Shown here: positions 4,234 to 44,242 of the stretch, piece after piece | How positions within the stretch are numbered: position 1 is the first letter of the stretch | How the letters are laid out: each line of letters opens with the position of its first letter | From: Planctomycetota bacterium | GTDB taxonomy: Bacteria; Planctomycetota; GCA-2746535 | Reading direction: 5' to 3' | Length of the DNA stretch: 64,000 nt | Assembly: GCA_002746535.1 (NCBI GenBank) | Contig: NVWA01000006.1 | Location: 81,411 to 145,410, forward strand | Translations under genes and position numbers: made by a program | Notes under the pieces: model-generated | Told to the model about the DNA's origin: nothing | Databases searched by the model: none | What the model saw: only the letters and a program-made list of their open reading frames with translations

Positions 4234-4272
4234 ATGAAGATTAAATATGAAAGGAGGCAGAAACTTGGCTGA
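4234..4272 (+). CDS. Possible 12-residue leader peptide overlapping the moxR start
   Basis: An ATG at 4234 is preceded by AAGGAG (4221-4226) at ideal spacing and opens a 12-codon frame (MKIKYERRQKLG) that stops with TGA at 4270-4272. It overlaps the Shine-Dalgarno and TTG start of the following MoxR gene. Translating ribosomes would cross that Shine-Dalgarno and terminate just past the TTG, which suggests translational coupling. It may equally be a chance open frame. Confidence 0.3.
   Translation: MKIKYERRQKLG
4251..4257 (+). promoter_or_regulatory. Shine-Dalgarno deciding a TTG start
   Basis: AAGGAGG lies 7 bases before TTG at 4265, the start I chose for the first MoxR gene. The in-frame ATG at 4247 lies just before this motif and has no comparable site at proper distance. 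Confidence 0.75.
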
Positions 4273-5296: not shown

Positions 5297-5314
5297 TTGG
5301 AAAGGTAGGTAATA

Positions 5315-6478: not shown

Positions 6479-6481
6479 TTT

Positions 6482-7381
6482 ATGACAAATTATTTTGACC
6501 CTAAAATTATTGGCCGTATTAAAAATTTAGATTTGCGGTCGATGCGTTTAGTGCAAAGTTTTAGTTCAGGTATGCATAAAAGTAAGATTATTGGTATCAG
6601 TACTGAATTCGCTCAGCACAGACAATATGTTCCAGGTGATGAAATCAAACATATTGACTGGAAAGTTTATGCGAAAACGGATAAGTATTATATTAAACAA
6701 TACGAAGCTGAAACAAGTATGGTCACTTACTTTCTAATTGATACCAGCGCATCGATGTTTTTTCAAAGTGAAGATGCCGGTATGAGCAAATTTGATTATG
6801 CGGCAACCGCTGCTTCTTCAGTTATGTTCATGATTCAAGATCAGAAAGATACTTTTGGCTGTGCCTTGTTTGATGATACTGTGCATACAAGATTGCCTGC
6901 TAAAGGTAGTAAGGGGCATTATCATAATTGTAACGAATTGCTTTCAAATGCTAAACCAGTAAAAGCAACAAATTTGACAGATTCGCTCATGAATATTGCT
7001 CCTCAAATTGGCCCACCAGGGATGTTGATTGTTATCAGCGATTTTATTGATGTTGATGATCGACTTGGATTAGCTTTAGGGCAACTAAATTTTATGGGTC
7101 ATGACGTCATGATGTTTAGAATTGAAGATCCGTTAGAAAGAGATTTTTCTTCATCAGGTCAGACAATTTTTATAGGTCCTGAAAATGAAGGTAAATTATT
7201 ATGTGATCCGAGAGATTTACGTAGTGCTTACTTAAAAGTTAGAGAAGAGCATATTGAGGACCTTAGAGGTGTTTGTAGAAGAAATGGTTTTGGCATTGAA
7301 GATATGTATACAGACACCCCATTAGATGCAACACTATCAAGTATATTAGCGGCTCGTTTGGCTCGAAGATCTTCTCGATAG
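6482..7381 (+). CDS. DUF58 / von Willebrand A-like protein
   Basis: This 299-residue DUF58 protein shows the family's signature block 'HRQYVPGDEIKHIDWKVYAK' followed by 'YEAE'. It also has a vWA-like metal site: Asp-x-Ser-x-Ser in 'DTSASM' near residue 90, Thr in 'KATNLTDS', and Asp in 'ISDFID'. No signal peptide or membrane segment is present, so it is cytoplasmic. DUF58 proteins are typical partners of MoxR ATPases in stress-tolerance and envelope-assembly systems, and this gene follows the second MoxR with a 3-base gap. The usual BatA/BatB membrane vWA genes are absent; instead two giant PQQ/TPR genes follow. Confidence 0.93.
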   Translation: MTNYFDPKIIGRIKNLDLRSMRLVQSFSSGMHKSKIIGISTEFAQHRQYVPGDEIKHIDWKVYAKTDKYYIKQYEAETSMVTYFLIDTSASMFFQSEDAGMSKFDYAATAASSVMFMIQDQKDTFGCALFDDTVHTRLPAKGSKGHYHNCNELLSNAKPVKATNLTDSLMNIAPQIGPPGMLIVISDFIDVDDRLGLALGQLNFMGHDVMMFRIEDPLERDFSSSGQTIFIGPENEGKLLCDPRDLRSAYLKVREEHIEDLRGVCRRNGFGIEDMYTDTPLDATLSSILAARLARRSSR

Positions 7382-7406
7382 ATAACTTATGAATTTTCAT
7401 AATCTT

Positions 7407-7411
7407 AGGAG
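7407..7411 (+). promoter_or_regulatory. Shine-Dalgarno deciding a TTG start
   Basis: AGGAG lies 6 bases before TTG at 7418. No ATG in frame lies before the signal peptide of the large PQQ/TPR protein, so the TTG start is needed to give it a complete export signal. Confidence 0.7.
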
Positions 7412-7417
7412 TTCCCA

Positions 7418-12115: not shown

Positions 12116-12126
12116 AGGCATTATGG

Positions 12127-15100
12127 ATGAAAGAAATTAATTTAAAAAAATATCTTTTATCTATAATACTTTTGATTTCCTTCCCTTGCATTCTTTTTTC
12201 ACAAAGCAAAGCGCCAGATCCATTTAAATCTGATTATGTGAAATATGTGCCTGATTTCATCAAAAAAGTAGATCCAGCCAGAGCTCGAGGTTGGAAGAGA
12301 AGCAAAAAGGAGATGGAGCGTTCTTCTGAGAAAACTTTTTATACCTTGAGCGAAATTGAAGAGGTTAACCGCGCTGATGCCTTAGTAAAAGCAGCTATCA
12401 ATAGTGAATCAAAAGGCGACTATCGCAAAGCCATGACAATGTATCAGAATATCATTTTAAAATTTAATAAATCCCAAGGGTACAAAGAAATTTTAACACG
12501 CGTTTCTAAATATGCTGTTTTTGTTCCGGTTGCTCAATATTGCCAAAGAAGAATATTAAATTTCCCTCCCGAACATTTAAACTTTTATCGTACATTACAT
12601 GATGCTGAAGCAAAAGAACTCTACATTGAAGCTGTCAGAAAATATTCACTTGAATTATTTTCTGAAATTATTGATAAGTATTTAGCGACATCCTATGGTG
12701 GCAAAGCTTTGCAATTTTTAGGTGATGCAGCTTTAGATAGGGGTAATTTTTTAGAGGCTCTAGAGTATTATCAAACAATAATGAGTAATATTCCAGATAA
12801 AAAATTAAGAACGCCTGAATTGAATTTAAAAATTCAATTATGCCTAAAATCTATTGGTGCAAAAAGTAAATTGAATAAAGCAACGGGTAAATCTCAACTT
12901 AAAGCTCTTGATTTCAATATTCTTAAAAGGATTTCTGCTAGTGCCAATTATAAAAAACAAAAAGTTTTGACGCAGAGAAATAGCAAAGGGCTTGTAGGTG
13001 CTGATGATTATACTCAAAATAAAAAAACAAATGACCCCCTTGGACTAAAAATCCCAGAGTGGGAAATTAGTATGCCTAATTCTCGTAACGATTATTTTGT
13101 CTATACGCAACCTGTGATTAGTGATACAAGTGTTATTTATCGCTATAAAAATGTCATATATTCCCACTCATTAATTAGTGGTGAATTAAGATGGAAATGC
13201 GACATCGGGGGTAGATCCGTGTGGCAGAGTTGGAGAGAAAGACAATTTCCTTTAGAAGATATTGTTGTGCATGATGGAGTCGTTGTGACACCAATAATAA
13301 AAGGTGGTTCTTCTTTAGTTGCACTGGATGAAATAACTGGGCAAATCAAATGGGCCCATGGGCCTATGGCCGTATCTGAAGGTGATGAATCTATGATGCG
13401 TTTTGAATGTGCACCGACTACGGGGCCAGGTACAATCTATGCTACATACGTTCTTGATAACATTAAAGGTAGTACGCACATTGATAGTGAATACGGCATT
13501 ATAGCTTACGATTCCGCCACAGGTAGAATGAAATGGCGTAGACAAATCAGTCGATTGCAACCAGGTAAATTTGATGGAGGATTTGGAGTCACTAGAAGAA
13601 ATAGAATTCGGAGTTTTTTTTCTCCACCTTTGTATCATCAAGGAACAATTTATGTGAATACTAATTCAGGCGTTATTGCGGCTTTGAATAGTATTTCTGG
13701 AAGAATTAAATGGTTGTTTCGATATCCTTATTTTCAGTCAGTACATGATTTAACGCGAACTTTTGGAAGGCACGGCTATGGTCGTGGTGGTGCTATTCAC
13801 GGAGGATTGTTACCTGTCCGTCCGCAAAGTCCAAGTTTTTGGTTAAATCAACGTCCATTGGTTGTTGGAGATAGTGTTTATATTACTCCAGTTGATTGTC
13901 CTTTTTTAATTTCAATTGATAGAAAAACAGGAAAGATTAATTGGACAAGAAGAAAGCCAACTTCAGGTTTTGTTTATTTCCTAGGGCCTATTTCTACTGG
14001 TGAATTAGTTCTAGCGGCAAATGGTCGAAGTGATGGAAAATTATATGATAGACATAGAAGGTTAAAAGAATGTCCTGTCTATTTATTAAACCCTAAAGAT
14101 GGTTCTTATACTTGGGGAAGTCCTGATTATGTAATGCATGATGATCATCCTGTTATGAGCTTGTATGTGTATTCATCACCGGCATCATTTAAAATTAATA
14201 GTCGTTATTTTGGTTTGGCCGCCAGACCATTTTTGGCAGATAATGATAAAATTGTTATGACAAGTTGGACAGATAATAGTGTTTACTATCGACCTGGAAT
14301 GCAAATATTTGCCTTGGGAGAAATTGATTTAAAAAACAGAAAGGTCTTGGGTAAGAGAAGATTTTATGCTAGTCCAACTCTTGCTCATGCTGATGTCATC
14401 ATCAATAGTGAAATAACAGGTCAACATGGCGGAGCGAAACCATGGTTGAAAGCATTAAAAGAAATCCCTCGACCAAATAAAAAGATTAAAGATCAAATTA
14501 AAGTATTTGACCAAATTGTAAAAGATACAGTTCCAGAAAACAAACACCCCGCATTCATGCCCTTTGTTAGAATGACCGCTACTCGATATGGTGTGCCCTT
14601 TGAATTAAGAATATCTCCTAGAAAAATGTCCATGGTCTATGATCGTAAAAAATTTGAAGCCATAAATAATCCCAAAAAAGATTTAAATTCAATTTTTGGA
14701 AAAGCTGAATTGGCAAAAAAAGATGGAGATTTCGGTAATGCCGCTAAATATCTTGGACAATGTTTAAAAATGGTATCCCCAGAAGACGTGAACTTTAGGG
14801 CATTATTAAAACAACAGTTTTATAAAGTTTATATCGAATTGGTTAGGTCCTCAATTCGTGGTAAATTTCCAAAAGCACAATTGAAGAATACTACAGGTAT
14901 GAGCAATACTGCTAGTGTTCTAGCTGAAGAAGTTGAAACGTTGTTCGCCTTGGCTGAAGCTTATGAAAATAATGGTATGTTTAAAAATGCCGCGAACTGT
15001 TTAAGAAATTTAATTGAAATATATGGTGAGCACGAATTTCCAATTTCAGATATTGCTAAAAAATCTGCCTTTGAAAAAGCTAGAATGGTTGAATTGACAA

Positions 15101-16851
15101 AAACAGCACAAAAGATTTTTGATGATTCAAAAAAGGTTTCAAACCCTATCTATCATACTTCATTAATTGATGCTATATCACTTAATCAAAAAAGCTTCGA
15201 ACTATATTCGAGTGCAGTTAGTCCTCTACCTAAAGATTTATCTTTAAGGACAGGAGATCTTGCAATCAATAAATTAAGAACGATGCTTTCAAATTCAGGA
15301 AATTTCAAAGATGAATATGCCAATTATGCTAAAGCTGAATTAAAAGGTGATGACATTAATCAACTTATTTATCATATATGGAAATTCCCAGGTACTGTTG
15401 TTGGTCAAAGTAACTTTAATAAGTTATTTAGTCTAAGTAAAAAACTTCCTGATGAAGACAAACGCTTATTACATTTGAAATTAAAGCATATTGGAAATGT
15501 ATGTAATTTTAAATTGCCTGTTGAAAATGAATCTTTTTTTAATGTTCCGGAATACAATCATTATAAACCAGCTTCGGGTAATTTTGGTGATAAGGAATAT
15601 GAGGTCACTAAGTTTAAAGATGGCATCATGATGTTGATGGAACGAAGTGGCAATAGAAGTATCAAGCCTAATTATATGTTTTTAAGTATTCGTTTACCAA
15701 AAAGAGTTGGAAACAAATTTAGTATCGTTTGTTTTGACTTATCTTCTGGCAAAGAAACTTGGAGGATAAATGAATTTAGACTGAAAGGTTTAGGCAAAGA
15801 GCCTGGCTTCTATAAAGCTTTTGTTCATGATGATATTGTAGTCGTGCATGGGGTTTCTGATGTGCTTGGTTTTGAGTTGAATACAGGCAAGCAAGTCTGG
15901 CATTATAAATCTCCGGATAGCTTTGAAGTTCAAAGAGCATTAATAAGCGGAAATTTATTTTTTATTTGTAGCACAAATGAAACGATAGCTTTACAAATAA
16001 AAACGAAGAGCCCTGTAGGTGAAGTTGCTTGGCAACAAAAAGAAGATGGGCAAATTTATCAAACACCCTACTTTGTAGGTGAGAAGTTTATCACCATTAG
16101 AAAATATCCTTTTAATATTACATCTAGATTTCGAACAACAGGAAGCTTAGTATCTCGTATGGCTATTCCAGACTTAATGCTAATGACTGATCATCCCTTT
16201 GTTAAGACAGCTGCGAAAAAATTATCTTTAGCGACTCACAAAAATCTTTTAGTTGTTACTGATGGTTATTATATATTGGTTTATGATGTCAATAATATGA
16301 GAATGCTTTGGAAAACTCTAATCCTCAGTAAAGATTGGAGTAATGAAACCAGTATACGTTTTGTTCTCAATGATCAGTTTTTGGTATTGTCAAAAATGGA
16401 TTACGATCAGAAGATCATGTATTGCTATGATGTCAAAACGGGAAAAAAAATATGGAATACAGATTATAAAAACAGTAAAACCCCAAGACCATTATATTCT
16501 TTTTCTTTAGATGGCACAACGTTGTATGGTGTCGAAGAATATTCGGGACAAGGCTTCTACGTTACCGCTTATGAATGTACGAAAGGCAAAAGATTGTTCA
16601 AGAAGCTATATAAAGATTATTCTGAAAAACCAAAGCTTGTAATGGATTCACAAGTATACGGAGACCAGTTTGTTATTAAAATTCAAGACCGTAAAAACTT
16701 TGAATTATTAATCATAAATAAAAAGACGGGCGTATCTTTTAAATCAGTCAAATCAAAAGGTGATGGACCAATAGGTGCACCTGGTCGCGTTTCAATGACT
16801 GTTCAAAATGGCCATCCCGTTTTATTCAGCAAAGTAAAATTTAAATATTAG
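12127..16851 (+). CDS. Giant secreted TPR / PQQ-like beta-propeller protein (copy 2)
   Basis: This 1574-residue protein is a tandem paralogue of the gene just upstream, with the same order: signal peptide, TPR, propeller, TPR, propeller. Long stretches are identical, for example the region around 'AQYCQRRILNFPPEHLNFYR' and the last 60 residues. The copies differ most at residues ~635-690 and ~740-790, where loops of the first propeller and the linker vary. Third codon positions have diverged widely while the protein is conserved, so the duplication is old and both copies appear to be under purifying selection. The ATG is preceded by AGAGG at 8-base spacing, and the gap to copy 1 is 11 bases. 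The two may form a heterodimer or have divided ligand specificity; that is inference. Confidence 0.92.
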   Translation: MKEINLKKYLLSIILLISFPCILFSQSKAPDPFKSDYVKYVPDFIKKVDPARARGWKRSKKEMERSSEKTFYTLSEIEEVNRADALVKAAINSESKGDYRKAMTMYQNIILKFNKSQGYKEILTRVSKYAVFVPVAQYCQRRILNFPPEHLNFYRTLHDAEAKELYIEAVRKYSLELFSEIIDKYLATSYGGKALQFLGDAALDRGNFLEALEYYQTIMSNIPDKKLRTPELNLKIQLCLKSIGAKSKLNKATGKSQLKALDFNILKRISASANYKKQKVLTQRNSKGLVGADDYTQNKKTNDPLGLKIPEWEISMPNSRNDYFVYTQPVISDTSVIYRYKNVIYSHSLISGELRWKCDIGGRSVWQSWRERQFPLEDIVVHDGVVVTPIIKGGSSLVALDEITGQIKWAHGPMAVSEGDESMMRFECAPTTGPGTIYATYVLDNIKGSTHIDSEYGIIAYDSATGRMKWRRQISRLQPGKFDGGFGVTRRNRIRSFFSPPLYHQGTIYVNTNSGVIAALNSISGRIKWLFRYPYFQSVHDLTRTFGRHGYGRGGAIHGGLLPVRPQSPSFWLNQRPLVVGDSVYITPVDCPFLISIDRKTGKINWTRRKPTSGFVYFLGPISTGELVLAANGRSDGKLYDRHRRLKECPVYLLNPKDGSYTWGSPDYVMHDDHPVMSLYVYSSPASFKINSRYFGLAARPFLADNDKIVMTSWTDNSVYYRPGMQIFALGEIDLKNRKVLGKRRFYASPTLAHADVIINSEITGQHGGAKPWLKALKEIPRPNKKIKDQIKVFDQIVKDTVPENKHPAFMPFVRMTATRYGVPFELRISPRKMSMVYDRKKFEAINNPKKDLNSIFGKAELAKKDGDFGNAAKYLGQCLKMVSPEDVNFRALLKQQFYKVYIELVRSSIRGKFPKAQLKNTTGMSNTASVLAEEVETLFALAEAYENNGMFKNAANCLRNLIEIYGEHEFPISDIAKKSAFEKARMVELTKTAQKIFDDSKKVSNPIYHTSLIDAISLNQKSFELYSSAVSPLPKDLSLRTGDLAINKLRTMLSNSGNFKDEYANYAKAELKGDDINQLIYHIWKFPGTVVGQSNFNKLFSLSKKLPDEDKRLLHLKLKHIGNVCNFKLPVENESFFNVPEYNHYKPASGNFGDKEYEVTKFKDGIMMLMERSGNRSIKPNYMFLSIRLPKRVGNKFSIVCFDLSSGKETWRINEFRLKGLGKEPGFYKAFVHDDIVVVHGVSDVLGFELNTGKQVWHYKSPDSFEVQRALISGNLFFICSTNETIALQIKTKSPVGEVAWQQKEDGQIYQTPYFVGEKFITIRKYPFNITSRFRTTGSLVSRMAIPDLMLMTDHPFVKTAAKKLSLATHKNLLVVTDGYYILVYDVNNMRMLWKTLILSKDWSNETSIRFVLNDQFLVLSKMDYDQKIMYCYDVKTGKKIWNTDYKNSKTPRPLYSFSLDGTTLYGVEEYSGQGFYVTAYECTKGKRLFKKLYKDYSEKPKLVMDSQVYGDQFVIKIQDRKNFELLIINKKTGVSFKSVKSKGDGPIGAPGRVSMTVQNGHPVLFSKVKFKY

Positions 16852-17055: not shown

Positions 17056-20000
17056 TTATTTTTTACTGATTAAATGGTTTGATAATCCGAAAATTTTAAA
17101 TGCAGGTATTTTAAGATTCAATTGTTCACCATCACGAATAATTTTGATATCAACTTCGTTGCCTATAACTTCGTTATGTAACAATTTGAATTGTCCTTTG
17201 TTTAATATTGGTTTATGGTTGTATGTTAAAATAATGTCATTTGATTTTAGTTTCTTTATGATCTTGGAATGTTCATGATTTCCTGCAATAAAAATAACAC
17301 AATTTGATTTTTTGAGATTCAATTGACAAGTGAATTCTTCTACCTTTGGTATAAAAATAAAATCATTGAAAGTAATATATTCCGGATGATTTAACCTAAC
17401 TTTGATAATTGAGCCTTGGTTCACCTTTTTAGAGTTTAGAAGATTGTGTTGCCCAAGATTATATTCAATGGAAAGCTCTTTTTCATATTGGATAGTGACT
17501 TGATAGTTAAGAGAGAAATTAATGTCTTTAAGTCGCTTGGTTCCATCAGGTGCTTTGAAAACTACTAAGCATGTCTTGTGGCTTTTCATGTTGTTTATAT
17601 CAACTTCAAAAGTATGTATTTTTTTTATTTCATCAAGTTGTAAAATCGGAGACGATATGCTATTGGCTGCATATTCATATAAATACTTACCTGGTTCGAA
17701 TAAATAAAAGAAGTGATTCTTTAATAATTTTAAATTTTTTGGGTATTTTCTTAAACTTATATTTTCCTTTTTTAATGAGATACCACCCATTGTTTCGAGT
17801 TTTGACTTATTCTTATTAGTAGGTTTTATGATTAGTTTTTGATTAAAATTAAGGACTAGCTTATTTTGAATTAAATCTCTATAGGAGATTATATATGTAT
17901 TGTCTTGTCGTACGTTATCTTCCCCCTTGAATGAAAACTTGAGCTGGTATTTTGCACTTTTGAAGCCTTCGAATTTATAATATCCTTTGGTACTAGGTGT
18001 AATTGTTTTTTTTTGCCTTTTGTATATGGATCCACTGGCACTTTTGACCTGGACTTTCATGCCTTTAATTGGTTTATCTTTCAATAGAATTTGAATCTTA
18101 AATTGGTGACGATTATCCTGCATGAGAAGATCGCTGATATTATAATTCCCTCCAGGGTGAACGGTAACATGGGAAGTAAATAGTAATTTAGAAAAATTAG
18201 CATTCCAGATTTTAAATTTTGAAAAATCGGACTTTATATAGGTGTCTTCAATATAACCAAATTTATCTGAACGTATGATCGCATTGTAATTATCGGTTGT
18301 TAAATGACAATTTGAGTAGGTGTTCCCGTTACTATCGATAAGTCTTCCAGATATTTTGGCTTTTTCTTTAAAATAATAGACGGGCTTTGAGTTACGAAAT
18401 TGACCACCGAAAAAGCTGCTCTGATACTTTGAGTTTACCAAAACGAATGGAAATGAAGTGTTGAAGCTTCCAACATCACTCATTTTCACTAGTATGCTAT
18501 TGAATATATAAGTGTTGATTTGGCCAAGGGAATTAAAAGGTTTTATTTCATTTTTTCTGCTATTTTTGTATCTGATATTGATAAATCCCTGTTCGATATT
18601 TTTACCTGAATATAGATCTTTGATCGTTAGTTTAATATCTATTGGTTTCGAGAATGAAATTGTGTTCATTGGATCATTTGGAAAAGCATATTTACTTACC
18701 CAGTCCGAAGAATAACCATTGAATACAAATCGAAAACCAAAAGAGCTATTTTTGGTGGATATGTGATTAAAATTTACACGACCTTCGACAATGTTACCAA
18801 CTTTCTGAACTTTTAAATAAGAAGGTAGCATTAGGTATATATCTTGCATGTTTGAATATTGTATTTTTGTTAATTTTGCATTGCCATATGTTGCGCCAAC
18901 AGGTCTATATAATTCGTGGGGTTGATAGGCCACTAATTCGCCATTTTGGTAAAGATGCCCATCTTCATCTATAATAGAATAACTTATATTTTCACCTTCT
19001 GTAAGCGTAACTTTGGTAATAGACTTTTTGTTAAAGTCTTGAAAAATAAATTTCATGGCATAACGGTCTTTAGTAAATTTCACATAATACAAAAAAGGCT
19101 TATCAGCTAACTCTTTTGAAAAATACTTTCCTTCTTTATTGGTTGTAAGCATCATTTTTTCATAAGTGATTAGATCATAAACTTCCACTGCGACGCCTTC
19201 TATAGGCAGATTTGTTTTTTCATCAGTTATAATGCCAAAATATTTCTTGTTTATTTTTTCTGATTTTAACTGTTGGATTGCATTAGTTTTGATTTCTTCT
19301 TTTGGTAGATCTTTTTTATCAGGTGCATAATTTTTAATCTCATCCTGTTTTGTGGCAATAGGTTCTGTAATATTAGCTATTTCTGATTTGATTGGAATCG
19401 TGTTATCAGATAAAGATTCCTTAGGTTGTTGTGGGGAGTTCTCAATCGGATTTTCAGTAAAAGGATCAATAAAATATATAAAAGCGAGTGTTAAGAGCCC
19501 TATTGGAATTAGTAGTAGTGATGGCAATAAACATTTTTGTAATAGTGGTGATTTTGATAATACATTAGTAATAGTCGTATCTGATTGAATATTTGTTGTT
19601 AATGATTCGAAATGCAAGTCTTGAGTTAGGTCTTTGGTTAAATCTGCCGCAGATACATTTTCTAAGAGTGGTATAAAAGATAATGCTAATGATGCAAAGC
19701 CACTTTTTTTGAGTGATGCTTTTAATAGGTCTAGTGCTTTTTGAATATGTTCATGAATGGTTGAGGTTGGGGTTAATGTTAATGCGGAGATTTCTTTAAG
19801 GCTCATTTTATTTATATATCGATTTAGAATTAAATCTTTTTCATTGTCTTTCAGCTGATTGATATGTTCATAAATAATATTTTGATCAAAGGTATCACTT
19901 GAAGAGATTTCACTAGAGGTATGTTCTATCATATTGCTTGATTTATTTTTAATATTTTTTCGATGATAATCGATGGCCTGATTTAAGCTTACTCTACTAA

Positions 20001-20226
20001 TCCATGCAGTAAGTTTTGAGTTTTTATCAAAGGTGTGTATGTTTTTGATGATTTTAATTAAAACATCCTGTGTAGCATCTTCGGCATCATGTTGATTTTT
20101 TAAAACGTTGTAGCAAATTTTATAGCTGTAAAATTGGCATTGCTTTAAAATTTCCATCAATATTTTTTCAGATGGTGATGAGCAATATTTGATGTAAAGG
20201 CTATTGATGTCGTCAAGGGGTTGCAA
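17056..20226 (-). CDS. Membrane-anchored ECF sigma factor with large extracytoplasmic region
   Basis: This 1056-residue fusion starts at TTG. Residues 11-90 match sigma-70 region 2 ('DAEDATQDV' at 47-55, 'LTAWISRVSLNQAIDYHRKN'). Residues 117-180 match region 4, with the helix-turn-helix 'MSLKEISALTLTPTSTIHEH'. A single strong membrane segment follows at about 231-252. The remaining ~800 residues would lie outside the cytoplasm. A carboxypeptidase regulatory-like beta-sandwich is seen near 328-400 ('YFGIITDEKTNLPIEGVAVE'), further beta-rich segments such as 'AKISGRLIDSNGNTYSNCH' follow, and the end resembles a PDZ domain. No separate anti-sigma gene is adjacent. The architecture suggests a sigma factor tethered to the membrane and controlled by an extracellular signal, perhaps by proteolysis; that mechanism is inference. 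Confidence 0.88.
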   Translation of the reverse strand: MQPLDDINSLYIKYCSSPSEKILMEILKQCQFYSYKICYNVLKNQHDAEDATQDVLIKIIKNIHTFDKNSKLTAWISRVSLNQAIDYHRKNIKNKSSNMIEHTSSEISSSDTFDQNIIYEHINQLKDNEKDLILNRYINKMSLKEISALTLTPTSTIHEHIQKALDLLKASLKKSGFASLALSFIPLLENVSAADLTKDLTQDLHFESLTTNIQSDTTITNVLSKSPLLQKCLLPSLLLIPIGLLTLAFIYFIDPFTENPIENSPQQPKESLSDNTIPIKSEIANITEPIATKQDEIKNYAPDKKDLPKEEIKTNAIQQLKSEKINKKYFGIITDEKTNLPIEGVAVEVYDLITYEKMMLTTNKEGKYFSKELADKPFLYYVKFTKDRYAMKFIFQDFNKKSITKVTLTEGENISYSIIDEDGHLYQNGELVAYQPHELYRPVGATYGNAKLTKIQYSNMQDIYLMLPSYLKVQKVGNIVEGRVNFNHISTKNSSFGFRFVFNGYSSDWVSKYAFPNDPMNTISFSKPIDIKLTIKDLYSGKNIEQGFINIRYKNSRKNEIKPFNSLGQINTYIFNSILVKMSDVGSFNTSFPFVLVNSKYQSSFFGGQFRNSKPVYYFKEKAKISGRLIDSNGNTYSNCHLTTDNYNAIIRSDKFGYIEDTYIKSDFSKFKIWNANFSKLLFTSHVTVHPGGNYNISDLLMQDNRHQFKIQILLKDKPIKGMKVQVKSASGSIYKRQKKTITPSTKGYYKFEGFKSAKYQLKFSFKGEDNVRQDNTYIISYRDLIQNKLVLNFNQKLIIKPTNKNKSKLETMGGISLKKENISLRKYPKNLKLLKNHFFYLFEPGKYLYEYAANSISSPILQLDEIKKIHTFEVDINNMKSHKTCLVVFKAPDGTKRLKDINFSLNYQVTIQYEKELSIEYNLGQHNLLNSKKVNQGSIIKVRLNHPEYITFNDFIFIPKVEEFTCQLNLKKSNCVIFIAGNHEHSKIIKKLKSNDIILTYNHKPILNKGQFKLLHNEVIGNEVDIKIIRDGEQLNLKIPAFKIFGLSNHLISKK

Positions 20227-21141: not shown

Positions 21142-23100
21142 CTAGTAAGAGTATCCCGTTTTATATTCTTTGTCATTCAGGGTTATTTTGAGCTTCATTT
21201 CAGACGAGCCAATTTTGGGCTTGCCTAATACTTGAATGGAAACCTTAGGAACAGATTTGACATAAGGCACTAAGACTGTAATAAAACGTAAGTTACTTTT
21301 CTTTTTCTGTGTCTCAATGCGGAAGGCAGGGCGCTTTACTTTTTTCGTATATTTATAAGAGACCCAGCCTTTTTCTTCAACAATAGATAAACCTTTTTGT
21401 GAAAGGCTTTGTATTAGGAGATTTGATTTTCCTTTTTTCCCTGTGTTGAAGCTTAAGTTCTCCTTATCATATATTGCCTCGCCTGGGGCTAGTTGAAAAT
21501 GAATAGCTGTTTTTCCTGTGGTAGTGCCAATGGCTTCGTCAACAAGGACAAAAAACTTTTTATCAACAAAGATAATGGCCCGCCTATGTTTTAAACCTTT
21601 ATAACTATTATTTTCAACGATGACGATATCCTGTTTTTTACCTGGTTTCCAAAGAATTAATTTGTGCTTTTCTTGAGAGGCATTTTTTAAATTTAGAGTA
21701 AGGGTCTGATGCACAGCAGTCTGCTTAAACCAGGTTCTAGCCTTATCGTTACCACTGTATATATAGGAACCTGAATCAGGGGTAAGACGTTTGCCGTTGG
21801 CAAAGAGTTCAAAGGTGCCGTTGTGTGGCTGGTCATGCCAGCCACCGTGCGGGCCGCAATTTAAAACAAGACAAGTTGCTTTTTCACTCCAATCGCTTCG
21901 CATGCTATAGAAGCCACTATCTTTTAGGGCGAAGGTCGTTTGCTTCGCTGCTTTTCCCTGTTTGCCTCCAGTAGCTGAATAAAGGAAGTCTTCTCGATTA
22001 AAGTAATGACCCCATTTATCTAATCTAGAACGATATTTTACCGGTGAATGCGTATCCCCAAATTGAGCCGTCTCGCCATTTGGGAGTCCTAATTGCATTA
22101 ATACCGCTACCATCGCTTCCAGGCGCTTCCAGAATTTATCAGAAAAGACATCCCCTTTATTATTAATCTTCGCTAGCTCAGCTGTTCGAGCAAACCAGTT
22201 AATGCAGCCAACATGATAATTTATGCACTGCTCTACCTGGTGTCCGTCAGCTCTTACCTGGATGTCAACTTCCTTGCTGATATGTTTCGTGCATTTCTTG
22301 ATCCACTGTTCTGATTTTTTAAATTCAGGAAAAGTAAAAGCAATAAAAGCTGCGCCTTCTGCTTCCATTAATCCCCAGTTATTGTGTTTGAAATGTCTAT
22401 TGGTCAAGCCTTCAGCGTGATCGTAGGCAGAATTTAGAAAGGCAACTAAGAGCTCAGGTGTAAAAGAGGGGGAGTCTATAAAATGTAGAAAGTGAGATGT
22501 CCAGGAACGACCACGTATCCCCATTTCAATTGTCCGCCAGGCTTTAGGTAATTTTTTAGGTGTGCTACAGTTTTCTAGCCAGTCTGCTAGCTGGCGTGCA
22601 TAGGCTTTGGCATATTTCTCTTTACCTGTCTGAACGTAAATCCTTGCCAGGGCTCCCCAGGAACTATGTCTATGCAATTGCCAAAGCCATTCATTATCTG
22701 CTTTTGATTTTGACCAATCAATCTTTTTCCCAAAGTCATGGCGAGGATAAGAGGGTGAGGCAATAAGAATATTTTTAACGGCATCATCAGCAATTTCTAA
22801 ATGTTTTTTAGAGACAGTTTTTTCTGATTTAAATCCCTTGATTTTACTTATGACTGGATGCTTAACTGTTTTACGCTTTTTAAAGTACTTCAGAAGGGCC
22901 TTTGCGCATTCATCAGGTTTATCACTTTTGGCTTTAACTTTTTCCAGTCCTTTGAAGTTCAGATTAAGTCTATTTAAAAGAATTTTCATTTCTTTGCCCT
23001 TTTTTATTTTATTTTCCACGCTTTTTTTATTTTCTGCACAGGCAAGACCTGAGATAATTGAAAATATCATTAAGAGTAACAAAAGTTTTTTAATGGTCAT
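21142..23100 (-). CDS. Heparinase II/III family polysaccharide lyase, exported
   Basis: This 652-residue protein has an N-terminal export signal, residues 1-22, ending Gly-Leu-Ala-Cys, so it may be a lipoprotein. The middle (about 130-390) fits the alpha/alpha-toroid of heparinase II/III-type lyases ('HRHSSWGALARIYVQTGKEK', 'HFKHNNWGLMEAEGAAF', 'DGHQVEQCINYHVGCINWF'). The C-terminal beta-sandwich carries the hallmark 'HGGWHDQPHNGTFELFANGK' and 'TPDSGSYIYSG'. Such enzymes cleave uronic-acid-containing polysaccharides such as alginate or glycosaminoglycans by beta-elimination; the exact substrate cannot be told. A 60-base sample at 22021 is about 43% G+C, against about 28% in a sample at 17761, which suggests recent transfer. 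No sulfatase or transporter is adjacent. Confidence 0.9.
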   Translation of the reverse strand: MTIKKLLLLLMIFSIISGLACAENKKSVENKIKKGKEMKILLNRLNLNFKGLEKVKAKSDKPDECAKALLKYFKKRKTVKHPVISKIKGFKSEKTVSKKHLEIADDAVKNILIASPSYPRHDFGKKIDWSKSKADNEWLWQLHRHSSWGALARIYVQTGKEKYAKAYARQLADWLENCSTPKKLPKAWRTIEMGIRGRSWTSHFLHFIDSPSFTPELLVAFLNSAYDHAEGLTNRHFKHNNWGLMEAEGAAFIAFTFPEFKKSEQWIKKCTKHISKEVDIQVRADGHQVEQCINYHVGCINWFARTAELAKINNKGDVFSDKFWKRLEAMVAVLMQLGLPNGETAQFGDTHSPVKYRSRLDKWGHYFNREDFLYSATGGKQGKAAKQTTFALKDSGFYSMRSDWSEKATCLVLNCGPHGGWHDQPHNGTFELFANGKRLTPDSGSYIYSGNDKARTWFKQTAVHQTLTLNLKNASQEKHKLILWKPGKKQDIVIVENNSYKGLKHRRAIIFVDKKFFVLVDEAIGTTTGKTAIHFQLAPGEAIYDKENLSFNTGKKGKSNLLIQSLSQKGLSIVEEKGWVSYKYTKKVKRPAFRIETQKKKSNLRFITVLVPYVKSVPKVSIQVLGKPKIGSSEMKLKITLNDKEYKTGYSY

Positions 23101-36473: not shown

Positions 36474-37115
36474 ATGTGGAGCAGTATTTATTCAACAGAG
36501 TGGACAAACCTTGTCGCTATGATTCCATTATTTTTATGTTCAGTTATCATCATTGCTATCATACTAGAAAGAGCCGTTAATTTCAGACCTTCGGCATTAT
36601 ATAGCGAAGACTTATCGAAATCAGTGTTAAGTAAAATTGAATCTGGCAACTGGACCGAAGCACTAACAGAAGTTGAGAATAAAGATGACTTACAATCGAT
36701 ACTTTACAAGCAAGGGTTGGAAGATCGCTTTAAGAAAAATGTAATGCCTGAAGTTGCTTTTCTTGATCATGGTCTTTCTAAATTAGATATTTTGGCCAAA
36801 TGGGTCACCTCTCTTATATTTATAGCCAAAATCGCACCATTAATTGGTTTGCTAGGTACAGTACTTGGGATGATTGAATCATTCAGTGTTATCTCATCCT
36901 CAGCAGAATCAGGTGGCGTCAAACCAGAAGAAGTTGCTGTTGGCATTGGTACAGCTTTGATTACAACGGCTTCAGGCTTAATGGTTTCGATACCCGCATT
37001 AGTTGCTGCTTCCATTTTAAAAAGTATGGGTGAAAAAGTATATTTTCAATTCGAAGATTCTTTCAGGATGATCACAATCGCATGTGGCGGTTTAAGAAGA
37101 TCGGAAAAAGATTAA
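36474..37115 (+). CDS. MotA/TolQ/ExbB-type proton channel protein
   Basis: This 213-residue inner-membrane protein has three membrane segments at about residues 12-31, 108-130 and 152-178. It carries the family signature 'APLIGLLGTVLGMIESF' and 'ALITTASGLMVSIPALVAA'. ExbB/TolQ proteins form a pentameric channel that, with ExbD/TolR, turns proton flow into mechanical work on TonB or TolA. The gene starts a three-gene operon: exbD-like 24 bases downstream, then a giant TonB/TolA-like gene. The Shine-Dalgarno AGGAG lies 8 bases before the ATG. It could be called TolQ-like equally well; the partner's long helix favours a TolQRA-like reading. Confidence 0.93.
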   Translation: MWSSIYSTEWTNLVAMIPLFLCSVIIIAIILERAVNFRPSALYSEDLSKSVLSKIESGNWTEALTEVENKDDLQSILYKQGLEDRFKKNVMPEVAFLDHGLSKLDILAKWVTSLIFIAKIAPLIGLLGTVLGMIESFSVISSSAESGGVKPEEVAVGIGTALITTASGLMVSIPALVAASILKSMGEKVYFQFEDSFRMITIACGGLRRSEKD

Positions 37116-37139
37116 ATTAAAATTAATTAGGAAGAATTG

Positions 37140-37553
37140 ATGAAAAGAAAAAACCCATTTGAAGTTGATGATGAAATAGACTTAACGCCATTAATTGATG
37201 TCGTATTTCTGATCTTAATCTTTTTTATGATTACCTCTACGTTTGTAAAAGAAAAGGATCTTTTTAAGATTATATTGCCAAAAGCAACTAGTGCTGAAAG
37301 TCAAAAGCTTGAGAAAGATGCTGTCATCTTCACGATCACAGCAGAAGGCGAATATGTGCTAGAAAGCATAGATGAGCAAATTGTCTCTAAAAAAGATTTA
37401 GGAGACAAGATAAAAAATTATGACAAAGAATCAATCATAGTTATCAAAGCAGATGAAAAAGCACCTATGGGATCATATACATACCTTACTGGTGTATTGA
37501 ATGAATTAGGTTTCTTTAAATACTCTATTCTAGTTAACAAAGGAGATAAATAA
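37140..37553 (+). CDS. ExbD/TolR-type protein
   Basis: The product is 137 residues from ATG 37140; a TTG directly before it is in frame. It has one N-terminal membrane segment (about residues 19-38) containing the essential aspartate of the family in 'TPLIDVVFLILIFFMITS', preceded by an acidic 'EVDDEID' stretch. The periplasmic part is short, as in ExbD and TolR, and ends with 'MGSYTYLTGVLNELGFFKYS', typical of the family's last helix and strand. It is the ion-coupling partner of the upstream channel protein. Its stop codon overlaps the next start (TAATG), so the three proteins are probably made in step. Confidence 0.93.
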   Translation: MKRKNPFEVDDEIDLTPLIDVVFLILIFFMITSTFVKEKDLFKIILPKATSAESQKLEKDAVIFTITAEGEYVLESIDEQIVSKKDLGDKIKNYDKESIIVIKADEKAPMGSYTYLTGVLNELGFFKYSILVNKGDK

Positions 37554-40500
37554 TGTCCCGTTCTGGTTTCAATAATCTCGATATTTCAGGCAAAAACATC
37601 AAATCTTACAGTATTGCTTCTGCTGTAATCCATATTGGCATGTTGCTTCTTTTTGTATTCATTACAAAACAAGCGATTGCTTATTATGATGATTTAAAAG
37701 ATAAAAAGGACCTAGAAGCTGCTCAAGAAAAACAAGAAATTATTGATACGGCACTTGCAGAAGAAGTGCTCGAAAATGATATTGCAGAAATTTTAGAAGA
37801 AATGCTTGATGAATTCGATGAAGATTTAGTAGATGATTTAGTAGATGAAATCATGACTGAAGAATTGAAAGAAGAAATCATTGCGAGTTTAGATAAAAAA
37901 GAATTGGATGATGAAGAGTATTTAGCTAAGTTAATCGAAAAAGTTCAGGAAAAATTAGAAGAATCTCTTAATAAGCAAAAAGATGATGAACTTGAGCAAG
38001 AGCTCTTAGACAAACTTGTCTTTGAAGACATGCCTACTATAGATAACAAGCTCGATAATGCCTTAAAGAAAGACACGCTAGAAACGTTAACGGCCGAGGC
38101 TATCGCTCAAAAAGCTAGAGAGGTTGCTAAAAACACCAAAGAAGATTTAAGAAAACAAAAAATGGAAGCCCGTATTACAAAAAAGCGTAAAGAAGCAGAG
38201 CAGTATGAAAAGACTAAAAATCAAGAAATCAACAATGCTTTGACCAAACTAGAAACAGCAAAAAATGATGAAGATATCAATGAAGTAGCCATACAAGCTG
38301 AGGTGATTTCAAGTATTGCCAAAGAAGTTGCTAATAAATTAAAATTAACGAACCCTTTTGAGGAATCAAAAACAAAAGAGAACAAGTCCTTCAAAGAAGA
38401 ACTGGCAAATCTGAAAAAAGATATTCAAGAGAGAAGCGAAGAGATTACCGCATTAGAAAAAAAATCTGATGAAGTCAGTAAAAAGACCGAAGAGCTTGCT
38501 AAGAAAAATGATAAGAGCACTGATGAACGTCAACAGAAACTTAATGAAGAGTTAAAGAAAGCTGCTAAAGAAAATAAAAAATCGACACTAGCTAAAAATG
38601 AAAAATCTATCGCCAAAGTAACTAAAAAAGCTGCTGACGTGGATACAATGCTTAGCAAAAGTGAAAATTTGTCTAATGCTAACACCGATGATATTAAAAT
38701 GGATCGTAAAGAGCTAGAGGCATTAGCTAACAATGCAGTCAAATCACAAAAGAAAGTAGAAGAAGATTTTAATAAGATAAAAGAAGCCGTTAAAAAGCAA
38801 GCACAGAATGAATTGAAATCTTTAGCGACTCTAAAAAGTTCTCTCTCAAAAAATGATAAATCCAAACTACCTGAACTTAAACAGCTTGAATCAAAATTAA
38901 ATCAACTTGCAAAAAATGTTCGTGAATTAGACAAAAATGCGAGTGAACAAAACCTCAGAAAATTCGAGAATGCAGATCAACTTTTTGATAAAACAGAAAG
39001 TGTTAAAAATAAAATAAGTGCTCTGCTTAATAATAAAAAGAAATCAACTGAAGAGAAGCTCAACGACCTACTTGAAAAAGCAAAGAAATCTCAAGAGAAT
39101 GAAACCGTAGCTAAAAAGACTACTGAAGTGTCTAAAGAAAATCTAAAAACAGTATCTGAAAACAAAAAGTCTACTCCAGAAGAAAAGAATAAAGCTAAGG
39201 TTGATGTGAAAGCCAAGCAAGATGCTGAGAAGAAATCAACAAAAACTGCTAAAAATGATGAGACCCAATTAAACAAAGAGCTTAGCAATAAAACAAAACA
39301 ACTTTCAGCTCGAGTTCAAAATGACGTTTACCGTATGACCGCTGAAGAGAAATTAAACAATGCTGAAAAGACAAAGGAAATCCTGGATCTCGTTAAGCAA
39401 GCAAGTGATACCACAAAATCACTTGACGAGAAAAAAGACTCTATCAAAAAGCTATCTAAAGCTCAAGACAAGCAAACTAGCCTGATGAAAAAAATATCGA
39501 AAGATCGCAAAAATGCTCCAGAGGAAAGTGACTTAAGTAAAAAGTTAGAAACGGCTAAAAAAGCTACTGAAGAATCAAATAAACTTAAAAGTGAATTAAA
39601 GAAATCATCGCAAGAGATGCTTGCTAATGCAAAGAAGGTTTTAAGCGACACAAAGAAAACGGCGAAGAATAAAAATGTTCTCAATCATGCAAATCAAAAA
39701 CTAAACCAAGCTCTAGCTGCATTAAAAAATAAACATAAATCTGAAGCACAAAAGAACGCAGAAGTTAAACGGGCACTTGATGCTGTAAAGAACGCTAAAC
39801 CTGAAAACAAAGACTTCAGCAAAAAAACGGAAGAGTTTAAAGCTAAAGGTGAAGTTGCTGCTCGTAAAACTCAAAATGCCAATGAAAAAACAAAAGATCT
39901 CTCCACAAGCCTTACCAAGGAAATTAGGAAAGAAATTAACGAGAATCGTAAATTACAATCAAACATGACGAAGAAAGAACAAGTTAAAAATAAGACAAAG
40001 GAAGATCAGAATCAACTAAACAAAGCTTACAAAGAATCAACTAGCAAGGATTTAAAGACATTAGAAAAAAGTCTTAAAAAACTTGAACAAGTAAAAGCAC
40101 ACCAAGAGCAAGTGGCTAAAAACTTAGACGAAAAAAGGGAAAATACAATTGAGCAACATGATAGAAAAATAGAAGCTCTTGAAAGTTTAGCAAAAGACAT
40201 TCAATCATTAGCAAAAGACTTCTTAACAGATAATAAAGAAAAAATTCTTAATAAACTAAAAGAAGATGCGATTAACGCTAAAATTGAAGAGAAATCTGAA
40301 ACTTTAGAAAAAAATCTAGCGAGTGGGTCTAAAAAAGACAAGAAAGAAAGAGCCAAATCGTTTAAACTAATGGCTAAAGATACCGTCAAAGCTACGCTTG
40401 AATCTGAAGCTGCTGATAATGAAGAAGCAGAATCAGAAAATGATGAAGAAAGTGAAGCCACCGCTGATGAAGAAAGTGAAGGACTTGATTCTGAAGATCA

Positions 40501-42064
40501 AGAGTCAGAAGGCGAAGGTGAAAGCGATCAAGAAAATAAAAGTAAAAAAGCCTTAGCTTCTCTTCAAGAGTCTCTAAGTGAATCTCTTGGTCTCGAAGAA
40601 GGTGAAGGCAAGGGCCAAGGTGAAAAAGATGAAGAAAAGAAAAAGAAAGATGGCGGTAAAGGTCAAAGAGGCGCTGTAGAGTCTAATAGTAAACTGACGA
40701 CGAAGCTAGTCGATATCATCAGAAATAAACGGAAAATTTATAAAAGAACGATACTATCGGATAAAACAAAACGCGAAATTTTAACGCAAAATAAAAATTA
40801 TAATTTACCAAAAGAACCGCCAATATTGAGATTTGCAAAACCAACGGCAAATGGCAAAGTTGAAAACCCTCCAACTCCTTCAGCGCAAGTTTATGTAGGT
40901 AAAATCACAAAAAGAGAAGGACCAAAATTAAATCCTGAACGAAAAAGAAAAGCTCACCCTAAATTCATCAAAGGTGACTTTCATGCGATACCACATTTAA
41001 ACAAATCACCCGTAATTGATGCCATCCCTTCTGAATGGAATTTAAAAAAATCAAAAGTAGGCTCAGCACAAAAAGTACATTTCGCATGGCGACCAGAAGG
41101 CTTATATATTTATGCCAGTGTTCGCGATAAATCATCTCATTTTGAAAGAGGCAGTGCTCAAGCAATGTTATCTAGTTTCTGGGAATATGATGTTATCGAA
41201 TTATGGCTCGATATGAAAAATGCTAAATCAGGGAATACAGCTAAAAATGATTGCCAGCAATTCTTTTTAGCTCCTAGTTTGCCTGGTGGAAGGCGAAAAG
41301 CTGAACTAAGAGAAGTCATATGGTCTACAAGAGGTGTCAGGGCTAAAAAAGATCGAAGTCTTTCTGAAGGTAAAAGAATTATTGCCTCTAAAATTCATAG
41401 CGACAGAAAAGGTTATGACCTAGAGTGCTTTATTTCACGCGCTAACATTCGTAACTTAGAATTTTTTAAAGCGGGACAAGTTTTAGGCTTTTTATATGTA
41501 ATTGATCATGGACCAAATCACAATTTAGAAGATGGATCGCTAAAAAACTACAAACATGGATATCCCTATTCTGAAAATCCAAAAGCATGGGGTAATTTAC
41601 AATTATTAGGTACTGATGCAAAAATTACTACTTTAGCTGCCAACGGCAAACCAACAGACTACCCTTCAGTAGAAATTTCACAGCCTCTTGGCATTATGGT
41701 AACGGATCAAGATTCTAATACTGATACCGCCTCAGTAAATTATGTTGTTGTTAGAGTTAAAAATCGCTACGGCTTTAATGGCAAGAAAATGGATAATAGA
41801 GGAAATGATCTAGGTGATTGGGAAGATATCAGGCTAAGAGAAACAGGCAAAAGTACTGGTATATTCAAAGGTTGGATATCAACAACTCTAATGCCTTCGA
41901 CAGTCGGTGATAATAAATTAGGCGTGCAGCCAGGTGATATATTAGATGTTAAATATAATGACTACGTCAAGATGGCTGGTGAATATAACAAAAAACTCAA
42001 TGTTGAAGTGCATGTAACATCACCCGTATTAATTGTGAATGGTGCCAATACCTTTTCAGAGTAA
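37553..42064 (+). CDS. Giant TonB/TolA-like protein with CBM9-like C-terminus
   Basis: This 1503-residue protein has a short cytoplasmic N-terminus and one membrane segment (about 20-42). That segment contains Ser23-x3-His27, the same SxxxH pattern by which TonB and TolA engage ExbB/ExbD or TolQ/TolR. About 900 residues of Lys/Glu/Ala/Asn-rich helix follow, like an enlarged TolA domain II. Next come an acidic Ser/Glu stretch (about 948-1000) and a Gly/Lys-rich linker. Residues ~1146-1352 resemble a CBM9/DOMON-type sugar-binding domain ('PVIDAIPSEWNLKKSKV', 'HFAWRPEGLYIYASVRDKS', 'DVIELWLDMKNAK'). The last ~140 resemble an extracellular module with 'LRETGKSTGIFKGWI' and 'GDILDVKYND'. No TonB-C domain is seen. 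A force-transmitting protein that contacts glycans or outer-membrane partners is inferred. Confidence 0.85.
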   Translation: MSRSGFNNLDISGKNIKSYSIASAVIHIGMLLLFVFITKQAIAYYDDLKDKKDLEAAQEKQEIIDTALAEEVLENDIAEILEEMLDEFDEDLVDDLVDEIMTEELKEEIIASLDKKELDDEEYLAKLIEKVQEKLEESLNKQKDDELEQELLDKLVFEDMPTIDNKLDNALKKDTLETLTAEAIAQKAREVAKNTKEDLRKQKMEARITKKRKEAEQYEKTKNQEINNALTKLETAKNDEDINEVAIQAEVISSIAKEVANKLKLTNPFEESKTKENKSFKEELANLKKDIQERSEEITALEKKSDEVSKKTEELAKKNDKSTDERQQKLNEELKKAAKENKKSTLAKNEKSIAKVTKKAADVDTMLSKSENLSNANTDDIKMDRKELEALANNAVKSQKKVEEDFNKIKEAVKKQAQNELKSLATLKSSLSKNDKSKLPELKQLESKLNQLAKNVRELDKNASEQNLRKFENADQLFDKTESVKNKISALLNNKKKSTEEKLNDLLEKAKKSQENETVAKKTTEVSKENLKTVSENKKSTPEEKNKAKVDVKAKQDAEKKSTKTAKNDETQLNKELSNKTKQLSARVQNDVYRMTAEEKLNNAEKTKEILDLVKQASDTTKSLDEKKDSIKKLSKAQDKQTSLMKKISKDRKNAPEESDLSKKLETAKKATEESNKLKSELKKSSQEMLANAKKVLSDTKKTAKNKNVLNHANQKLNQALAALKNKHKSEAQKNAEVKRALDAVKNAKPENKDFSKKTEEFKAKGEVAARKTQNANEKTKDLSTSLTKEIRKEINENRKLQSNMTKKEQVKNKTKEDQNQLNKAYKESTSKDLKTLEKSLKKLEQVKAHQEQVAKNLDEKRENTIEQHDRKIEALESLAKDIQSLAKDFLTDNKEKILNKLKEDAINAKIEEKSETLEKNLASGSKKDKKERAKSFKLMAKDTVKATLESEAADNEEAESENDEESEATADEESEGLDSEDQESEGEGESDQENKSKKALASLQESLSESLGLEEGEGKGQGEKDEEKKKKDGGKGQRGAVESNSKLTTKLVDIIRNKRKIYKRTILSDKTKREILTQNKNYNLPKEPPILRFAKPTANGKVENPPTPSAQVYVGKITKREGPKLNPERKRKAHPKFIKGDFHAIPHLNKSPVIDAIPSEWNLKKSKVGSAQKVHFAWRPEGLYIYASVRDKSSHFERGSAQAMLSSFWEYDVIELWLDMKNAKSGNTAKNDCQQFFLAPSLPGGRRKAELREVIWSTRGVRAKKDRSLSEGKRIIASKIHSDRKGYDLECFISRANIRNLEFFKAGQVLGFLYVIDHGPNHNLEDGSLKNYKHGYPYSENPKAWGNLQLLGTDAKITTLAANGKPTDYPSVEISQPLGIMVTDQDSNTDTASVNYVVVRVKNRYGFNGKKMDNRGNDLGDWEDIRLRETGKSTGIFKGWISTTLMPSTVGDNKLGVQPGDILDVKYNDYVKMAGEYNKKLNVEVHVTSPVLIVNGANTFSE

Positions 42065-42565: not shown

Positions 42566-42958
42566 TTAAATCCTTAGTACAGTTACAATTGCCAGAATAC
42601 TAATAACTAATGACAACTGTTTTAAATTTAAGGCTTATCAGTATACCATAAAATAACTTTTGCTCTATTAACCAAATGTTGTGTTTAGCCTTATAAATAG
42701 CATTTAATTTGGCAATTTTGTCTATCAGTTTTAATTATTTTATGTGCATAATTTTAGCGCAATACTTATTCAATTGAATGCTTTTGCTTTTCTTTGATTT
42801 ATTAAGGAAATAAATTTCTCATTGCAAATGAAAAGGGTGGTTAATGTTATGAAATGCTAAAAGAAATAAGTTTATTTAGATTGAGATAAAATTGTGAGCT
42901 AAACTGCTATCAACATTAACTTTATGAGTTTTCTTAATTAATTCGAAAGGAAGACGTG
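42566..42958. other. Gene-free stretch between divergent genes
   Basis: About 390 AT-rich bases must contain promoters for both the Hpt gene and the following secreted protein. I see no frame, no convincing hairpin and no clear promoter pair. AAAGGAAG at 42946-42953 is the ribosome site of the next gene. Confidence 0.45.
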
Positions 42959-44242
42959 ATGTCAGGTTTGTCATATTTATTTAAAAGCGGTTTGTTTCTA
43001 TTTTTATTTTTAATTTTGACATCTAATTTTTTACATAGTGAGACTAGACTTTTATATCCTCAAGAGCAAGCTCTGAAAAAGATCTCTAATAAACTTTCTA
43101 AGGTAGTAACCACTTATAAAAGGTACTTGTCAGAGCACAAGAACAAAACATATCGATTAAAACCTGAGCCCTTTAAAGGACTTCTTGCATCTGCCAAGGT
43201 AATTGAAAAAGAATTTATTGCAGAAAAATTTCCTGATGATATCAAAAAGGTTAAAAATATAAAAACATGGATTACATCAATAAAGAAAAATCATCCTAAA
43301 CTCTTAGAACTTTATAACAAAGGGTATGCCGCTTCACAAATAGAAGCCGCTAAAGCAGACATATCAAATTTTCCAAATTATAAGGCAGATTGTGATCGAT
43401 TGAAAAAAATGTACCATGCTTATAAAAATCCTAGAAGTGTTTTCCAAAGTTCTAAAAAAGCCTTAGCTGTTGTCCCGACTTTTACTGATGAATATGCCTT
43501 CTTTCAAAATTTGCCAACGAAATATGCCTTATTGATAAAAGCCAAGAAAGCTGGTAAATTAGAAACGTGGATAAGAACAAATAAAAAATATTTAGATCCA
43601 TTTAAAAAACATATGGAGGAATATTCTCAGAAACTTCCAAGTGAAATAAACAGCTCCATTGATTCAGCGGCAAGTATGGCAAAACAAGCCAAAGCAAATA
43701 AAAAACCTAACTTTTTTAAAGGTGGTGTTAGGCAACATTTAGGAGTCGCAAGAGATAAATTGAAGATTTTAACGGCTATAAAAGGTGATGAAGATCGAAC
43801 TGTTTTAGCTGCCATAAAGTATCTCAATGAAAAACAAAAAGTTATAGATGATGCTGAAGAATCTTTAGCGGTAGATTTATTAGCCAGTGTTGAAACTCCT
43901 CAGGATGTTTATAGTGGTGGCGATAAATCTAAGTTATTGGGTTTGGTCAAATCAACTTGGAAAAAGAAATATCCCTCAGATAATATTTTGGGCATTAGGT
44001 TTCATCATGCTAATTTTGTCAGAAAAACATCACGGAAATGGAATAATAGTGGATGGTATACGATAGATTCTTCTTTCATGGCTGTAACTGTAATTGTTAA
44101 AAAGAATGATATTATCGCGATGTTATACCCATGTTTTATCAATAAAAATCATATGAAAAGTGATCTGCTAACCATTGGTGCTGACACTAAAAAAGGATCT
44201 TATGTGATCAAGAAAATGTTGATGAAGAATTTGAAATTATAG
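42959..44242 (+). CDS. Hypothetical exported protein
   Basis: The product is 427 residues from ATG 42959, 5 bases after AGGAAG; a GTG just before is in frame. The N-terminus (hydrophobic residues 8-23, then 'HSET') is a signal peptide or membrane anchor. The middle is Lys-rich and helical. The last ~110 residues look like a compact alpha/beta domain with several aromatics ('FRHHANFV'-like and 'NNSGWYTIDSSFMAVTVIVK'). I recognise no family. It stands alone between an intergenic stretch and a convergent minus-strand operon. Confidence 0.7.
   Translation: MSGLSYLFKSGLFLFLFLILTSNFLHSETRLLYPQEQALKKISNKLSKVVTTYKRYLSEHKNKTYRLKPEPFKGLLASAKVIEKEFIAEKFPDDIKKVKNIKTWITSIKKNHPKLLELYNKGYAASQIEAAKADISNFPNYKADCDRLKKMYHAYKNPRSVFQSSKKALAVVPTFTDEYAFFQNLPTKYALLIKAKKAGKLETWIRTNKKYLDPFKKHMEEYSQKLPSEINSSIDSAASMAKQAKANKKPNFFKGGVRQHLGVARDKLKILTAIKGDEDRTVLAAIKYLNEKQKVIDDAEESLAVDLLASVETPQDVYSGGDKSKLLGLVKSTWKKKYPSDNILGIRFHHANFVRKTSRKWNNSGWYTIDSSFMAVTVIVKKNDIIAMLYPCFINKNHMKSDLLTIGADTKKGSYVIKKMLMKNLKL

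Follow-up and report, generated by a model that had tools for sequence, protein, structure and literature searches.

In the TonB-ExbBD complex of E. coli, TonB touches the first transmembrane helix (TM1) of ExbB through Ser16 and His20, which meet Ser34 and Trp38 (PMC12215075). The closest precedent for the locus described here is a group of ExbBD-driven force transducers carrying an SHLS motif and a vWA tip, whose existence in PVC bacteria and beyond was proposed by Williams-Jones et al. 2025 (PMC12204202). The locus lies in a 64,000-nucleotide stretch of a Planctomycetota genome, referred to below as the window, and encodes a protein of 1503 aa that we call the giant. The giant and the vWA transducers have in common the linkage to ExbBD/TolQR, a single TM helix with an SHLS-type Ser/His pair and a C-terminal domain unrelated to TonB_C (PMC12204202). 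They differ as follows: the tip of the giant consists of a CBM9 and an Ig-like domain instead of a vWA domain; the arms of the giants are helical, with about 450-1070 residues, in contrast to a disordered, proline-rich domain II of ~100 residues; and the window cassette has one ExbD and no TPR gene, whereas the vWA transducers come with two ExbD and a TPR gene (PMC12204202).

The cassette consists of three genes on the forward strand, arranged head to tail as an operon: an exbB/tolQ-like motor subunit of 213 aa (36474..37115), an exbD/tolR-like motor subunit of 138 aa (37137..37553, whose real start is probably the ATG at position 37140) and the giant, a probable ExbBD-coupled transducer to judge by its overlapping start and its homologues (37553..42064). 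Both motor subunits are ordinary members of their families and score over the cut-offs (PF01618, E=1.4e-22, 80.3 bits; PF02472, E=8.7e-24, 84.5 bits). The exbD stop and the giant's start form a TAATG overlap at 37551-37555, in which TAA and ATG share one base, and an AAGGAG-like ribosome site sits within exbD. When mapped on E. coli ExbB, the window ExbB keeps the equivalents of Ser34, Thr148, Thr181 and Pro190 and has Ile in place of Trp38; the two pore threonines are retained in all 20 operon ExbBs examined, and the window ExbD, by reading of its sequence, retains the TM aspartate in LTPLIDVVF. In the E. coli sequences used for this numbering, the residues named in PMC12215075 fall at the expected positions. 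A further gene at 42956-44242 was considered as an operon member and left out; it lies ~0.9 kb downstream, with an antisense Hpt gene intervening. Promoter and terminator scans returned nothing richer than shuffled sequences, and Rfam and tRNA searches gave no match. Elsewhere in the window, positions 4247-16851 encode a pair of MoxR-type AAA ATPases, a DUF58/vWA protein and, in tandem, two TPR and PQQ/beta-propeller proteins of ~1570 aa, a set that resembles a MoxR-vWA-beta-propeller ternary system. On the minus strand, 17056-20226 encodes a protein of 1056 aa with an unusual fusion, an N-terminal ECF-type sigma factor (Sigma70_r2 and r4) followed by carboxypeptidase-regulatory, SdrD_B-like and weak PDZ domains, and 21142-23100 encodes a Heparinase II/III-type polysaccharide lyase.

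Hydropathy places a single TM helix in the giant at about residues 18-38 (37604..37666), with its hydrophobic stretch near residues 20-38, and within it lies the putative motor-docking motif S23-A-V-I-H27 (37619..37633). The helix is followed by a charged helical arm at about residues 45-962 (37685..40438) and by a low-complexity linker, acidic then basic, at about residues 963-1136 (40439..40960), which is recognized by its composition and has pLDDT mostly below 50. Residues 51-1123 are 43% charged and contain 1.2% Pro, windows along the arm show an amphipathic-helix periodicity near 3.5 residues, and in an AlphaFold2 model of low confidence (mean pLDDT 57.5) residues 16-962 are almost wholly helical. 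In this low-confidence model residues 16-85 form one continuous helix, with no disordered motor-box stretch after the TM segment. The full SHLS motif is not kept: Leu at His+7 and Ser at His+11 are Phe and Thr in the window, and both positions are variable in the family, as they are less conserved in Ton too (PMC12215075). Since the mid-regions of the homologues span 451 to 1073 residues and the window's giant is the longest found, its length is not typical. Pfam searches found no TonB_C (PF03544) or TolA family match in the giant, and the full-length protein matched nothing in Pfam, NCBIfam or PDB sequences. An earlier note on this DNA had described an ExbB-ExbD operon with a 1503-residue partner that starts within the exbD stop codon and has one membrane segment with Ser23-x3-His27, ~900 residues of charged helix and no TonB-C domain. 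This description holds throughout: the Pfam matches, ORF coordinates and shared base agree with the operon, hydropathy and sequence with the segment, the Pfam searches with the missing domain, and composition, periodicity and the AlphaFold2 model with the long helix.

What that note overlooked is the C-terminal region of ~370 residues, which comprises a CBM9-like domain (residues 1169-1352, 41057..41608) and a C-terminal Ig-like beta domain with a LRETGKSTGIFKG motif (about residues 1370-1495, 41660..42037; pLDDT mostly 80-92). When the C-terminus was searched alone, CBM9_1 (PF06452) scored 26.7 bits against a curated cut-off of 23.4, and the same Pfam family was matched by 14 of 16 homologous C-termini at E<=0.01. 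A profile built from these 16 sequences matches the CBM9 of Thermotoga maritima xylanase 10A (1i82) with E=1.1e-13 and, over its last ~100 residues, the Ig-like domain of an archaeal S-layer protein, that of Nitrosopumilus (8c8k), with E=2.7e-16. Foldseek recovers the same two structures when queried with the tip as modelled by AlphaFold2 (mean pLDDT 72.8, pTM 0.72). The tip matches no family other than CBM9_1, a vWA domain being absent, and comparing its structure with viral proteins gave nothing informative. The tip resembles 1i82 by both profile and fold, but its CBM9 domain sits on a motor arm and not on a glycosidase. It likewise shares with the Nitrosopumilus maritimus S-layer protein (8c8k) an ETG-x2-TG-x-F-x-G beta domain, but in a single C-terminal Ig-like copy on a motor-coupled giant. 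In Xyn10A the sugar is sandwiched between W71 and W175, a numbering consistent with the alignment. All 16 aligned members have Trp or Tyr at the first of these positions, while the equivalent of W175 is Ser or Ala in 10/16. Unlike in 1i82, it is Ser in the window giant, as in the relatives with exbBD upstream; it is aromatic in the remaining 6/16 (L046, L048, L049, L059, L060 and L061), a feature of the giant-exbB-exbD members of the alignment. The sequence evidence for sugar binding by the tip is thus mixed.

The distribution of the family was assessed by a C-terminal profile search of 392 sampled Planctomycetota genomes, in which copies were counted at >250 bits. There are 22 copies in 15 of these genomes, five of them in a single genome (G078, the MAG Planctomycetota PL25a_bin.47), and since the next match scores 116 bits, the family is discrete. 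A scan of genomes from 84,980 species, which rested on one peptide pattern and is a weak test of absence elsewhere, extended the family to one Verrucomicrobia MAG, one Lentisphaeria MAG and a cultured strain, Cerasicoccus maritimus NBRC 105382; a scan of viral contigs found no relatives. By these searches, the family is a discrete one whose members come from Planctomycetota and from Verrucomicrobiota, Lentisphaeria among them. The three genes recur together in related bacteria, which speaks for a real kind of envelope machine. The exbB and exbD genes adjoin 17 of the 18 giants with a readable N-terminus, leaving aside the second cassette type described below; the exception is L049, and the pair is also found beside two giants whose N-terminus runs off the contig. 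The cassette, arranged either as exbB-exbD-giant or as giant-exbB-exbD, is seen in Planctomycetota, Verrucomicrobiota and Lentisphaeria. In the tree, the giant-exbB-exbD members form one side of a branch (93/89), and the exbBD-giant order requires two changes. No conserved fourth gene was found in the neighbourhoods beyond exbB and exbD, the largest cluster being antisense shadow ORFs of exbBD. In L059:2-2200 (minus strand; G112), ExbB and ExbD appear to share a single frame immediately downstream of the giant, by genuine fusion or through faulty assembly, and the giants at L050:6015-9489 and L054:4877-8379 (minus strand) are split into two overlapping frames in MAGs, probably by frameshifts.

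Several lines of evidence argue for coupling of the giant to the motor. The SxxxH motif occurs in the TM helix of 16/17 aligned homologues, compared with 1.6 of 17 expected from shuffled TM windows, and chance was rejected as its origin on this difference. An 18th homologue (L115) also has the motif, which brings the total to 17/18; the sole exception, the Lentisphaeria giant, has AxxxH, so that none of the 18 lacks the His. Across 11 aligned N-terminal regions (~1150 residues), otherwise 12-35% identical to that of the window giant, only M1, S23 and H27 are invariant. On the side of the motor, none of the 18 partner ExbBs examined lacks Ser34, and Leu or Phe takes its place in just two operons, those of the second cassette type (L003 and L044), whose giants lack the Ser and His. 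This correlation fits direct docking of the giant on ExbB, but its support is moderate because about two thirds of unrelated Planctomycetota ExbBs also have Ser34; Trp38 has given way to another residue in most members, among them the window's. Pairwise distances among the giants are correlated with the ExbB distances (r=0.83) and the ExbD distances (r=0.82; permutation p=0.0002). A common species history could contribute, but it is insufficient alone because the paralogous cassettes of G078 land in different clades. Taken together, the conservation of SxxxH, the exbBD cassette in two phyla, the co-varying distances and the ExbB Ser34 correlation make a proton-driven, TonB/TolA-like coupling of the giant to ExbBD well supported at the sequence level.

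These results bear on the remaining claims of the earlier note, which had suggested a search for the same gene order in related genomes and had named homologues lacking SxxxH and unlinked to exbBD as one case against its reading. What we found instead is the motif in 17/18 homologues and the cassette beside 17/18 giants. Its expectation that the SxxxH face would contact ExbD differs from the solved TonB and TolA complexes, which show that contact with TM1 of ExbB/TolQ (PMC12215075). Of its proposed new proton-driven machine, the proton-driven partner is well supported and the newness is only partial, the vWA transducers having already been proposed (PMC12204202).

A second type of cassette was seen on another contig of the same genome (C87), where a divergent operon encodes an exbB, two exbD, an 867-aa protein that looks LamG/deacetylase-like by eye, a CBM9-like protein of 1224 aa and a lipoprotein. 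Operons of this type, at L003:10794-18848 and L044:4142-11765, contain exbB, two exbD, a protein of 865-867 aa and a CBM9-like giant, followed by a lipoprotein. In the L003/L044 type, the TM helix of the giant has neither Ser nor His and ExbB has no Ser34, which suggests that this type couples differently; the corresponding giant of the window's own genome has a zinc-ribbon-like N-terminus by eye.

We consider it probable that the giant is an ExbBD-driven force transducer whose CBM9/Ig-like tip acts on a glycan or a glycosylated partner. One helix would hold it in the inner membrane, and the Ser-x3-His face of this helix would dock on TM1 of the giant's own ExbB, a step for which the sequence support is strong. 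The motor would be the ExbB5-ExbD2 complex from the same operon, and proton flow through it, to judge from the ExbBD family and from the conserved ExbD Asp and ExbB Thr, would move or tension the helix. The arm of about 450-1070 residues, depending on the species, may then carry the movement across the periplasm, which is partly supported, and the CBM9 and S-layer-type Ig-like tip would grip a glycan, or an envelope partner that is glycosylated or bears polymer, and pull on it or release it. The tip may act within the periplasm, at the outer membrane or beyond it. A glycan or glycosylated partner as the target is what we infer from the tip. That the motor pulls polysaccharide directly through a long CBM9-tipped arm, for polymer capture or import into an enlarged periplasm, as an undescribed class of PVC machine, is a bolder version that we think unlikely.

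Other explanations have to be weighed against this force transducer. The giant might be the organism's TonB or TolA proper, energising TonB-dependent receptors or Tol-Pal. It does have the Ser-His half of SHLS and the ExbBD linkage; like TonB, it has Ser-x3-His in a single TM helix, an exbB-exbD operon and presumed docking on ExbB Ser34, and like TolA, it combines the motif with a helical periplasmic arm. However, it has no TonB_C or TolA domain. Unlike TonB, it lacks the proline-rich linker, does not keep the Leu27 and Ser31 positions and is several times longer; unlike TolA, it lacks domain III, has no tolB or pal near it, and its arm reaches about 1000 residues compared with a few hundred. 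Furthermore, a separate TonB is encoded on another contig beside its own ExbB-ExbB-ExbD, with a TonB-dependent receptor elsewhere in the genome, so that the giant would be an additional machine. As to Tol-Pal, this genome, 89% complete, yielded no Pal, and the only OmpA-type domain found belongs to a flagellar motAB-type operon (C13:161910-163000, L080). We therefore regard this identity as highly improbable. It is also quite unlikely that the giant is a passive anchor, an undriven tether of an envelope or glycan layer to the inner membrane that is linked to exbBD by history only. A long helix with a CBM9/S-layer-like tip does resemble a tether, and the C87-type paralogues lack SxxxH, but a motor would be superfluous for a pure tether, the Ser and His are the only invariant internal residues in a region of 1150, and the exbBD link persists in two gene orders and two phyla with co-varying distances.

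More specific functions can be asked of the same tip. The giant could power polysaccharide uptake into the periplasm, its CBM9 tip drawing polymer through an outer-membrane complex. Planctomycetes show CCCP-sensitive dextran uptake into an enlarged periplasm by an outer-membrane route yet to be identified (PMC5394234), the tip is a carbohydrate-binding fold, and the paralogous operon encodes, besides a lipoprotein, a protein that by eye is LamG-like/deacetylase-like. Against this, no conserved outer-membrane or CAZyme partner is found among the neighbours, and the family occurs in 15/392 sampled Planctomycetota genomes, under 4%, and hence is not a general uptake system; this function appears somewhat unlikely. 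Alternatively, the giant could drive surface adhesion or gliding, with the Ig-like/CBM9 tip as a motor-linked adhesin. ExbBD-type motors power gliding in other bacteria. Such a role has been suggested for the vWA transducers (PMC12204202), and the last domain of the giant resembles an S-layer domain, but no gliding genes were recognised nearby and no outer-membrane partner was found, and we think this role unlikely.

The force-transducer reading would place the CBM9 and Ig-like pair as a third kind of tip on ExbBD motors, after TonB_C/TolA_III and vWA. The accessible part of PMC12204202 makes no mention of a CBM9 tip, and our search of the accessible literature found no paper combining CBM9, ExbB and TonB. 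The conserved docking motif makes the coupling testable by point mutation. Since the tip points to glycans, the family may bear on how planctomycetes use the PMF to handle polysaccharide at their outer membrane, where a motor-driven carbohydrate-binding arm would be an attractive candidate for dextran-type uptake.
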